Virus record (IMG/VR): IMGVR_UViG_3300020281_000106 | Location: 1-27,742 of that record | Reading direction: 5' to 3' (one strand) | DNA length: 27,742 nt | Source of the DNA: a virus | Part shown: one piece after another, positions 1,328-3,940 of the stretch | How the letters are laid out: every line of letters begins with the position of its first letter | Position numbering within the stretch: position 1 is the first letter of the stretch | Translations under genes and position numbers: made by a program | The notes under the pieces: generated by a model | Seen by the model: the letters and a program-made list of their open reading frames with translations, nothing else | Databases searched by the model: none | What the model was told of the DNA's origin: nothing

Positions 1328-1510
1328 TTAGCCTTTATTTTCTGTTCTCTTTTTTTCTTCTTCTATAAATTGCATTAACAAAGTTACGTATATTTCCCTT
1401 TCCCACGGTATCATTCCTTCTAAATCACTAAGAGAATAATTATGATGTTGCATCAGTTGAAAATTAACTCTGTAGTGGCTGTTCAAGTTATCATGAGAAA
1501 GGGCTACTAA
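1328..1510 (-). CDS. Frameshifted extension of gp26 (gp51-position / GT-type tail chaperone tail)
   Basis: This frame continues gp26 in the -1 direction: 60 codons, from TTA at 1510-1508 to TAA at 1330-1328. If ribosomes slip on the T-run at the end of gp26 they make a 296-residue fusion. The peptide has a compact conserved-looking core, NYSLSDLEGMIPWEREIYV, followed by a charged helix. This pattern resembles the short tail-chaperone extensions of myophages and the frame sits where T4 has gene 51. The only plausible independent start is ATG at 1453-1451, giving 41 residues, but no Shine-Dalgarno sequence precedes it, and sense codons run unbroken upstream of it to the slip site. Both points favour expression by frameshifting. 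Homology to T4 gp51 itself (about 250 residues) is not evident. The next gene starts six bases after the stop. Confidence 0.7.
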   Translation of the reverse strand, partial: LVALSHDNLNSHYRVNFQLMQHHNYSLSDLEGMIPWEREIYVTLLMQFIEEEKKRTENKG

Positions 1511-1531
1511 AAAAAATCCTTAAGACCCTCC
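1507..1531 (-). promoter_or_regulatory. Programmed -1 ribosomal frameshift site
   Basis: Read on the minus strand, gp26 ends GAT TTT TTT TAG TAG. The heptamer T TTT TTT (1516-1510) is a canonical X XXY YYZ slip site, and two stop codons follow at once. A GGAGGG sequence (1531-1526) lies nine bases before the heptamer, close to the spacing at which an internal Shine-Dalgarno sequence stimulates -1 shifting, as in E. coli dnaX. The -1 frame is open for 60 codons. I found no convincing downstream hairpin or pseudoknot by eye. Confidence 0.75.
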
Positions 1532-2218: not shown

Positions 2219-2845
2219 TTATACTCTTCTCCAATCTCTATATTGCATAACTACTTGAATTTCTAATAGTCCATCTGGCTGGTTATCTAATGCTACACCA
2301 GATACACTTTTAGGATAAGCGTCTTCTAGTACTAAACTATAATTCGTCTTATCCGAATAATTTCTATCAAAATCAAAATCCACGTTTACCGTAAAATTTA
2401 AAAATTTTGCAAGGAACTTCGAAGCAAATGAAATCCCTCTGTTTCTCAGATCAAAGTCGTATGACATACCTTTTCTGAGATGATGTATGGACATTCTTGA
2501 AGAATATTCTTTTTCATATCCTACATAATAACTACTACCTATAACACTCTGATGCCATCTTTCAAAATACTGTTTTACTCCCCAGTCATTCAATAGATGA
2601 AAAGTTAGTGTAACATCATCTGTTATAATTTGATTTGCAATTTCTGTTCCTTTAACACTATAAATTCTAGGTACAGTTGCCATAGCTCTTCCAGGCATAG
2701 TAGCAGTTTTACAAAGAACATTTAGTTCTTTTGTTTCTGTTATTGTACCAGCTATTCTCGGTAGAACGACTACAAACTGATTCGATAATGCTAACCCATC
2801 ACTTTTCGTAATTTGTGTTTTTAATTTCTCTATAGAAAAAGCCAT
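2219..2845 (-). CDS. Tail tube-family protein (gp19/gp54-like)
   Basis: The 208-residue protein has the organisation of the T4 gp19 tail-tube fold, which gp48 and gp54 also share. It has an N-terminal helix, then NQFVVVLPRIAGTI; a strand with the family's small-residue 'P' turn (CKTATMPGRAMATVPRIYS); DDVTLTFHLLNDWGVKQYFE in place of the gp19 'W-x-V-T-V-x-N-D' segment; and a closing strand (LLEIQVVMQYRDWRRV) like the gp19 end. The true tail-tube gene normally sits beside the sheath gene, and none is seen here, so a tube-initiator role like gp54 is more likely than major tube protein. The start overlaps the upstream stop by one base (TAATG), with GGAG about 11 bases before it, implying translational coupling. 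Whether it is gp54, a second tube protein or a hub spacer cannot be decided from sequence alone. Confidence 0.6.
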   Translation of the reverse strand: MAFSIEKLKTQITKSDGLALSNQFVVVLPRIAGTITETKELNVLCKTATMPGRAMATVPRIYSVKGTEIANQIITDDVTLTFHLLNDWGVKQYFERWHQSVIGSSYYVGYEKEYSSRMSIHHLRKGMSYDFDLRNRGISFASKFLAKFLNFTVNVDFDFDRNYSDKTNYSLVLEDAYPKSVSGVALDNQPDGLLEIQVVMQYRDWRRV

Positions 2846-3429
2846 TAGATCATACTCCTTGAATCATTGTAGACTGTTCCCTTTCCTGCCTTCTCGAAAT
2901 CTGCTGTTGGTAAAAACGTAGCAATCTCCCATTCTGGTGCCGGTACAAGTGCAAGTCGACTTCTGATATTTGATGTTAGGTAATGTTTAAAACATGGCTT
3001 AAAATATTTTAAATTTGTAGAAGCTTTCAGCATTTTATAGGATAAACTGAATTTAGTGGACTCATCATATTTCTTATTACTAGTGATATCCATCAGCCCA
3101 TCTAAGAATTTAGCTCTCAGTGCATTAGGTAGGTAGTGTAAGTTGATACCCTTGAATCCACCTTTAGCAGGCTCTACTACGATAGTAAGGGGAAACCTAT
3201 CATAGTATGGTAGAGTTTCTTTATGCTTAGGATCGTAGAAGTACATGTACATATTTCCGATACCGTGTCTATTACGTAATTGTAGAGGATCTTGTCTCAT
3301 CAGTTCTAGTCGACTGGTACCACGTAGTTGTCCGGCTTTCTGTTGGAACCACTTTCTAGATTCTTGAGTTCGAGGTGTTATACCTGCTCTGAATGCAGCT
3401 AATTCTAATTTTTGAAATAAATTCGCCAT
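2845..3429 (-). CDS. Conserved phage protein of unknown function
   Basis: The product is 194 residues. I do not recognise a characterised family, though the central pattern (PYYDRFPLTIVVE, then GFKGINLHYLPNALR) looks like one I have met in other T4-like phages. The N-terminal third is basic and Gln/Arg-rich (residues 14-50), the centre is predicted beta, and the C-terminal third has charged helices. No signal peptide, membrane segment or catalytic motif is visible. It lies between head-completion gp4 and a tube-family gene. T4 has gp2 (the DNA-end protector) near gp4, so a neck or DNA-end role is possible but is only a positional guess. A perfect late promoter ends five bases before the ATG and no Shine-Dalgarno sequence is present, so the message may be leaderless, or translation may start further in (for example Met44). 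Confidence 0.65.
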   Translation of the reverse strand: MANLFQKLELAAFRAGITPRTQESRKWFQQKAGQLRGTSRLELMRQDPLQLRNRHGIGNMYMYFYDPKHKETLPYYDRFPLTIVVEPAKGGFKGINLHYLPNALRAKFLDGLMDITSNKKYDESTKFSLSYKMLKASTNLKYFKPCFKHYLTSNIRSRLALVPAPEWEIATFLPTADFEKAGKGTVYNDSRSMI

Positions 3430-3442: not shown

Positions 3443-3940
3443 TCATTTTTTAGATTTTCTCTTAAACCGAGGTAGCGGCTTTAACTTCTTCAGCCTTCCA
3501 GGAGAAGGTTTAGGCAGTATTCCCATTTTCTGCAACGTATTCTCAGTCCATATCTGAAATTCCCAGCCGCGATCCTTTGCATAATTACTCGCTGCTTTCC
3601 ACTTACACCTATTCTTGACATATTCCAGAGATTCTGATAAGTATCTTTTCGTTCTTCTTTGCCCTGTCGGAGGTACTGTCTGTGATTCAGGTTTGATCTC
3701 CACCAATATAGTTCTATTGTTGATTGTAATTTTAAGATCCATGAAGTAACGATGATACTTCTGGTCTACCTCATACAGATATGGTATTACAACTTCTTCA
3801 GAACACCATGATTTAACGTTTGGATTCTGGTCACACCACTTAAACGCAGATTTTTCCCACAATGACCTATAGATAACATTAGTGTAATCACCTTTATATT
3901 TTTTAGGATTTGATACCTTGTAACGACCTGAATAACTCAT
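3443..3940 (-). CDS. 4: Head completion protein gp4
   Basis: The 165-residue product closely follows T4 gp4 (about 150 residues), which is added to the DNA-filled head before the tail joins. Recognisable segments are KYKGDYTNVIYRSLWEK, SWCSEEVVIPY, YHRYFMDLKI and ILVEIKPESQT, then a Trp-rich end (CKWKAASNYAKDRGWEF). Together they form a PD-(D/E)xK / TnsA-like nuclease fold, with D68 and E81-x-K83 in catalytic positions and E29 upstream. The Lys/Arg-rich C-terminal tail (about 150-165) extends beyond the T4 protein. The start codon overlaps the plus-strand late promoter of the divergent gp48 operon. No Shine-Dalgarno sequence or clear late promoter serves gp4 itself; the best candidate is a weak TATAAAAT on the minus strand at 3965-3958. 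Confidence 0.9.
   Translation of the reverse strand: MSYSGRYKVSNPKKYKGDYTNVIYRSLWEKSAFKWCDQNPNVKSWCSEEVVIPYLYEVDQKYHRYFMDLKITINNRTILVEIKPESQTVPPTGQRRTKRYLSESLEYVKNRCKWKAASNYAKDRGWEFQIWTENTLQKMGILPKPSPGRLKKLKPLPRFKRKSKK

Follow-up and report, generated by a model that had tools for sequence, protein, structure and literature searches.

The region behind gp26 in the genome fragment of a T4-like marine phage analyzed here (the window, 27,742 nucleotides in full) raises the question of how a gp51-like sequence that lies in the −1 frame relative to gp26 is expressed. All the genes around it are on the minus strand. A gp4-like head closure gene (3443–3940) and a gp2-like DNA end protector gene (2845–3429) are followed by the gene of a gp19-like tail tube protein (2219–2845; phrog_45, 3.3e-23), directly 5' of gp26 (1507–2217), then by the gp51-like −1 frame (1328–1510) and, directly 3' of it, by a tape-measure-like gene (3–1322). 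The tape-measure-like gene runs off the window edge; the complete ORF on a related contig (L005) has 545 aa. The tail assembly chaperone (TAC) locus is thus found between the tail tube and the tape measure genes, the latter matched weakly by PHROG tape measure profiles (best 5.8e-6).

The gp26 gene encodes a gp26-like protein of 236 aa that corresponds to the short tail assembly chaperone (TAC-N). It matched PF12322 (T4_baseplate) over its full length (1.1e-60, 205.5 bits against a cut-off of 24.5) and phrog_150 at profile positions 6–232 (3.3e-61). The AlphaFold model of gp26 had a pLDDT of 91, and its N-domain matched the structures 3fgx (Z 8.5) and 2ob9, the HK97 TAC (Z 7.5; 86–87 residues), followed by 5ir0 (5.2) and then by 3.9. 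A Foldseek search of the model against the PDB gave no match below 0.1 (E 0.5). The predicted N-domain fold resembles that of known tail assembly chaperones and supports the chaperone role, at a strength that is modest by the Foldseek E value. In close relatives, two CxxC pairs of gp26 (C97/C100 and C218/C221) are near-invariant, which suggests a zinc ribbon; both pairs are lost in S-SCSM1 and Mosig.

On the minus strand, gp26 ends in GTG GAG GGT CTT AAG GAT TTT TTT TAG TAG. The initial annotation had read this end as a slip site with tandem TAG stops, preceded at nine bases by GGAGGG and followed by a 60-codon open −1 frame with a conserved-looking core, and each of these elements was recovered. 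The slippery heptamer T TTT TTT (1516–1510) is made of the last two Phe codons of gp26 and lies inside a run of eight T, and the tandem 0-frame stops follow directly (1509–1504). The GGAGGG, a putative Shine-Dalgarno (SD)-like upstream stimulator, is at 1531–1526 and leaves a gap of 9 nt to the heptamer. A −1 shift on the heptamer would lead to ...KDFF-LVALSHDNLNSHYRVNFQLMQHHNYSLSDLEGMIPWEREIYVTLLMQFIEEEKKRTENKG. The −1 frame consists of 60 codons (1510–1331) and a stop that ends at 1328, and it encodes a gp51-like C-terminal extension of the proposed long form (TAC-NC). Its core proved to be real, with a match to phrog_634 (gp51, 'baseplate hub assembly catalyst') at profile positions 58–114 of 121 (E 6.6e-27). 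The extension also matched phrog_150, the gp26 family, at positions 235–277, directly after the match of gp26 itself, which indicates that some family members hold both parts in one chain. With a −1 frame that overlaps a short gene and an in-register slippery heptamer, the window shows the arrangement of G/GT-type loci.

We examined the junction in relative loci that were picked by protein similarity to gp26 or to the extension, together with named phages; the slip site was never a criterion. The extension was present in 178 of 180 sequences, and in the two exceptions (L010 and L086) the contig ends just past gp26. Of 162 distinct junctions, 159 had gp51 in the −1 frame of the gp26 strand, and every one of these 159 had T TTT TTN in register (77 TTTTTTT, 72 TTTTTTC, 9 TTTTTTA, and 1 TTTTTTG). 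These junctions span cyanophages, Pelagibacter phage Mosig, Vibrio nt-1, Sinorhizobium phiM7, and Rhizobium IG49, and the same arrangement was seen in Stenotrophomonas Yut3, Aeromonas AsFcp_4, Vibrio D486, and Vibrio VmeM-32. From pooled synonymous codon usage, the heptamer would be expected in ~74 of the 159; no p-value was attached to this count because the sequences are related. In all 159 junctions, the first Phe is written TTT and follows a codon that ends in T, and other Phe-Phe pairs in gp26 read T TTT TTN in only 4 of 95 cases. The distance from the heptamer to the PWER motif was identical in 149 of 150 sequences. Heptamer, SD-like element, −1 frame, and gene position were all conserved across the relatives, and a slip site destroyed with both frames intact was found in none of the 159 −1-frame junctions, which come from close and middle-distance relatives.

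The conservation of the slip site has limits outside this set. The three remaining junctions were those of T2 and Aeromonas phage 25, both with divergent genes 26 and 51, and that of the cyanophage S-SCSM1. S-SCSM1, a Synechococcus phage (L002:3700–3745), is the only same-strand exception: it keeps TTTTTTC, but owing to extra sequence after the heptamer its gp51 has an ATG of its own and lies in the +1 frame, which may be a real change of mechanism or a sequence error. Distant Ackermannviridae (L183:3800–3860 and L184:3830–3900) have a gp51-like extension in the −1 frame and no slippery heptamer; the junction of L183 reads GAG ATT TTC ATT TAA. An overlapping TAATG in YX22 (L184), where the Kuttervirus has ATT, could allow re-initiation.

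The upstream element was also enriched among the relatives. SD-like matches of at least 5 nt were found in 50% of them, compared to 29% under a synonymous-codon null, and in nearly all cases were located 8 or 10 nt upstream. At the SD-like position, GAG was used for 55 of 80 Glu codons, compared to 27% elsewhere in gp26.

Downstream of the slip site, the window RNA can form a long-range stem of 12 bp with a duplex energy of −17.3 kcal/mol. The 5' arm CCCUUUCUCAUG (1503–1492, minus strand) begins 6 nt after the heptamer and pairs with the 3' arm CGUGGGAAAGGG (1407–1396, minus strand), closing a loop of 84 nt. A tight local hairpin was rejected for the window, where folding 40–90 nt past the slip showed no clear signal; the stem stands out only with ~110 nt folded, and then from a single one of the five starts (z −2.7). 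Across the relatives, 55-nt windows that start 0–15 nt past the slip were more stably folded than shuffled sequences, with a mean z of −1.2 to −1.5, compared to mean z values between −0.8 and +0.3 at other positions. The mean stem energy was −10.5 kcal/mol, compared to −5.3 with synonymous codons redrawn.

When 9045 column pairs of an ungapped 149-sequence alignment were ranked by corrected mutual information, the first two places went to two pairs of this stem, 18-117 and 15-120; both are synonymous, with third codon positions on either side. Among 85 sequences, pair 18-117 was UA in 34 and CG in 29, and pair 15-120 was CG in 43 and UA in 16. RNAalifold predicted no structure on an alignment of the 85 sequences, probably due to the differences between clades and the long loop, and we therefore relied on the covariation of the named pairs. 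An arm-swap test was discarded as sole proof of the stem, since relatedness made z negative for shifted control arms as well, and for this reason a tree-based simulation was run, using a tree built from gp26 minus its end. On this tree, column 18 had undergone at least 18 changes and column 117 at least 24. With the columns simulated as changing independently, an association as strong as that observed did not occur once in 4000 runs, whether for pair 18-117 or for pair 15-120. A sign test on independent pairs pointed in the same direction and was underpowered (median p 0.25 and 0.125).

By simple thresholds, the long-range stem was strong in 89 of 149 relatives and weak in 60, of which 22 had a strong local hairpin at the same place and 38 had neither. 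In a group of cyanophages (L105, L139, L148, L157, and similar), a strong local hairpin AGTATGGCTCA...TGAGTCATACT, 3–41 nt after the heptamer, replaces the long-range stem; the ATG at codon 4 of the extension lies within this hairpin. Together, the enriched GGAGGG and the covarying stem supply the upstream SD-like element and the downstream RNA structure of a programmed −1 cassette. We think it likely that the long-range stem stimulates the frameshift in this branch of T4-like phages by pairing the ALSHD codons, immediately behind the slip site, with the PWERE codons ~100 nt on, in which case two conserved protein motifs would double as regulatory RNA arms and related cyanophages would use the local hairpin instead.

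On this sequence evidence, we consider it highly probable that the locus has two products, the short gp26 and, by programmed −1 ribosomal frameshifting, the long gp26-gp51, as in the G/GT pair of lambda. Most ribosomes would stop at TAG TAG after Lys-Asp-Phe-Phe and release gp26, the short tail assembly chaperone. We infer that a fraction of ribosomes, delayed by the GGAGGG before the slip site and the RNA stem after it, would move back by one base on U UUU UUU and read 60 further codons, at a rate that would leave gp26-gp51 the minor product and the short gp26 the major one. On the model of lambda G and GT (PMC5009743), from which the presumed binding partners and short-to-long ratio are taken, the short form may coat the tape measure protein and the extension may recruit the tail tube protein, after which both forms would leave.

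Frameshifting had to be weighed against other ways of accounting for the −1 frame. One alternative is that gp51 is an independent small protein, made from an internal start or by re-initiation after the gp26 stop. It is annotated in this way in records; S-SCSM1 can work only that way, if its sequence is right, and the first ATG is at codon 4 of the extension in 22 relatives. In the window, however, the first ATG (1453–1451, minus strand) is codon 20, the sole ATG upstream of the last third of the frame; it lies inside the conserved core and, in agreement with the initial annotation, which had taken it for the only plausible independent start and found no ribosome site there, it has no SD-like sequence. 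Moreover, residues are conserved from codon 4, upstream of any ATG in most relatives (122 of 159 have none before codon 15), and codons 3–18, which precede the first ATG of the window, are under purifying selection (pN/pS ~0.26). An independent gp51, which would also leave the 159 heptamers, the constant junction length, and the stem unexplained, is very unlikely in our view.

We give even less credence to slippage of RNA polymerase on the T run, by which an mRNA with one extra U would encode the long form. The window has eight T in a row, as do 56 relatives, but 82 of 159 relatives have exactly six, which is short for polymerase slippage, and only slippage of the ribosome makes sense of the T TTT TTN register, the SD-like element, and the RNA stem. 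The frame is short and has no start codon at its beginning, as a chance open frame or a degraded relic might; its match to phrog_634, the purifying selection on it, and its presence in nearly all sequences refute this reading, the probability of which is close to nil.

The T-even phages represent a natural control, since they have a separate long gene and neither the heptamer nor the stem. T4 gp26 and gp51 belong to the same family (PF12322) as the window gp26, and gp51 carries the same C-terminal extension. T2 gp51 is a gp26-like protein plus the extension (PF12322, 4.3e-55; phrog_150, positions 13–280). In T4, the long form has a gene to itself, the paralogous gene 51 on the other strand, and there is no slip site; in the window, just the extension is present, as a −1 frame with no start, instead of a full-length gp51 gene of its own with a gp26-like N-domain. 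No slip heptamer was found in the last 60 nt of gp26 in nine T-even phages, several of which are near-identical, and the long-range stem was absent from three T-even gp51 genes (−1.0 to −2.2). T4 gp26 still ends in Phe-Phe, written GAG TTC TTT. Genes 26 and 51 of T4 (L188:3803–5229) are divergent paralogs, and the T2 copies share 20% identity (E 1e-5). In a tree of the shared domain, T-even gp26 and gp51 formed one group apart from all frameshift forms, with a support of 99/100. This sequence tree fits a duplication in the T-even lineage, with the order of events inferred, as the tree is unrooted and long branches meet there.

Several known systems resemble this locus. In lambda G/GT, P2, and HK97, as in the window, the gene of the short chaperone lies between the tail tube and tape measure genes and has a −1 slip site close to its 3' end, and the HK97 structure 2ob9 resembles the gp26 N-domain in fold. 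Compared to these, the window gp26 is larger and has CxxC pairs, and the heptamer is T TTT TTN; the lambda slip heptamer is G GGA AAG. The likeness is one of gene arrangement and fold. The E. coli dnaX cassette has an SD-like element ~10 nt upstream, an A AAA AAG heptamer, and a local hairpin a few nt downstream. The order of elements is alike in the window, which has T TTT TTT and a stem that closes an 84-nt loop.

A 2016 paper (PMC5009743) describes G/GT frameshifting as conserved among long-tailed phages, with T4 as the exception. Vladimirov, Gautam and Davidson 2022 (Virology 566:9–15), as cited in PMC10885494 and PMC12846349, identified the tail assembly chaperone genes of T4-like phages. 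The same study is credited with finding that some T4-like phages have one short and one fused long gene (PMC10885494) and with poly-T −1 signals in T4-like TAC-N genes (PMC12846349). The T4-like gp26/gp51 chaperones as described in PMC10885494 are like those of the window, with a short form and a long form that adds the downstream part. In the passages of PMC12846349 on Vandenendeviridae and Andersonviridae, the TAC locus likewise has a conserved −1 frameshift on a poly-T run, close to where TAC-N ends, and a C-terminal part mis-annotated as a separate gene; these are other phage families, the motif is given as GTTTTT, and those passages mention no long-range stem. By these citations, the identification of the T4-like chaperones and the frameshift principle are already known. 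The proposal of the initial annotation that gp26/gp51 are the T4-like version of the G/GT pair is supported for the window and its relatives, where heptamer, −1 frame, SD-like element, and gene position are conserved; T4 itself uses two genes, and the idea is not new. An earlier report of the long-range covarying stem was not found in the searchable literature, which leaves out most subscription journals, and the stem is, as far as we can see, the new part.

The frameshift would explain why many records of cyanophages and marine T4-like phages lack gp51 or give it an arbitrary start. The extension had no annotation in the records of four named phages (L171, L177, L181, and L185), was a separate CDS with varying starts in four others (L001, L170, L172, and L173), and was joined to gp26 in none of the records viewed. 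In cyanophage and marine T4-like records, gp26 and gp51 should be annotated as one joined gene. One family would thus have two routes to a short and a long chaperone, frameshifting in the phages described here and two genes without a slip site in the T-evens. The covarying stem represents a specific cis-element, whose effect on the frameshift rate, and thereby on tail assembly, can be probed by synonymous changes.
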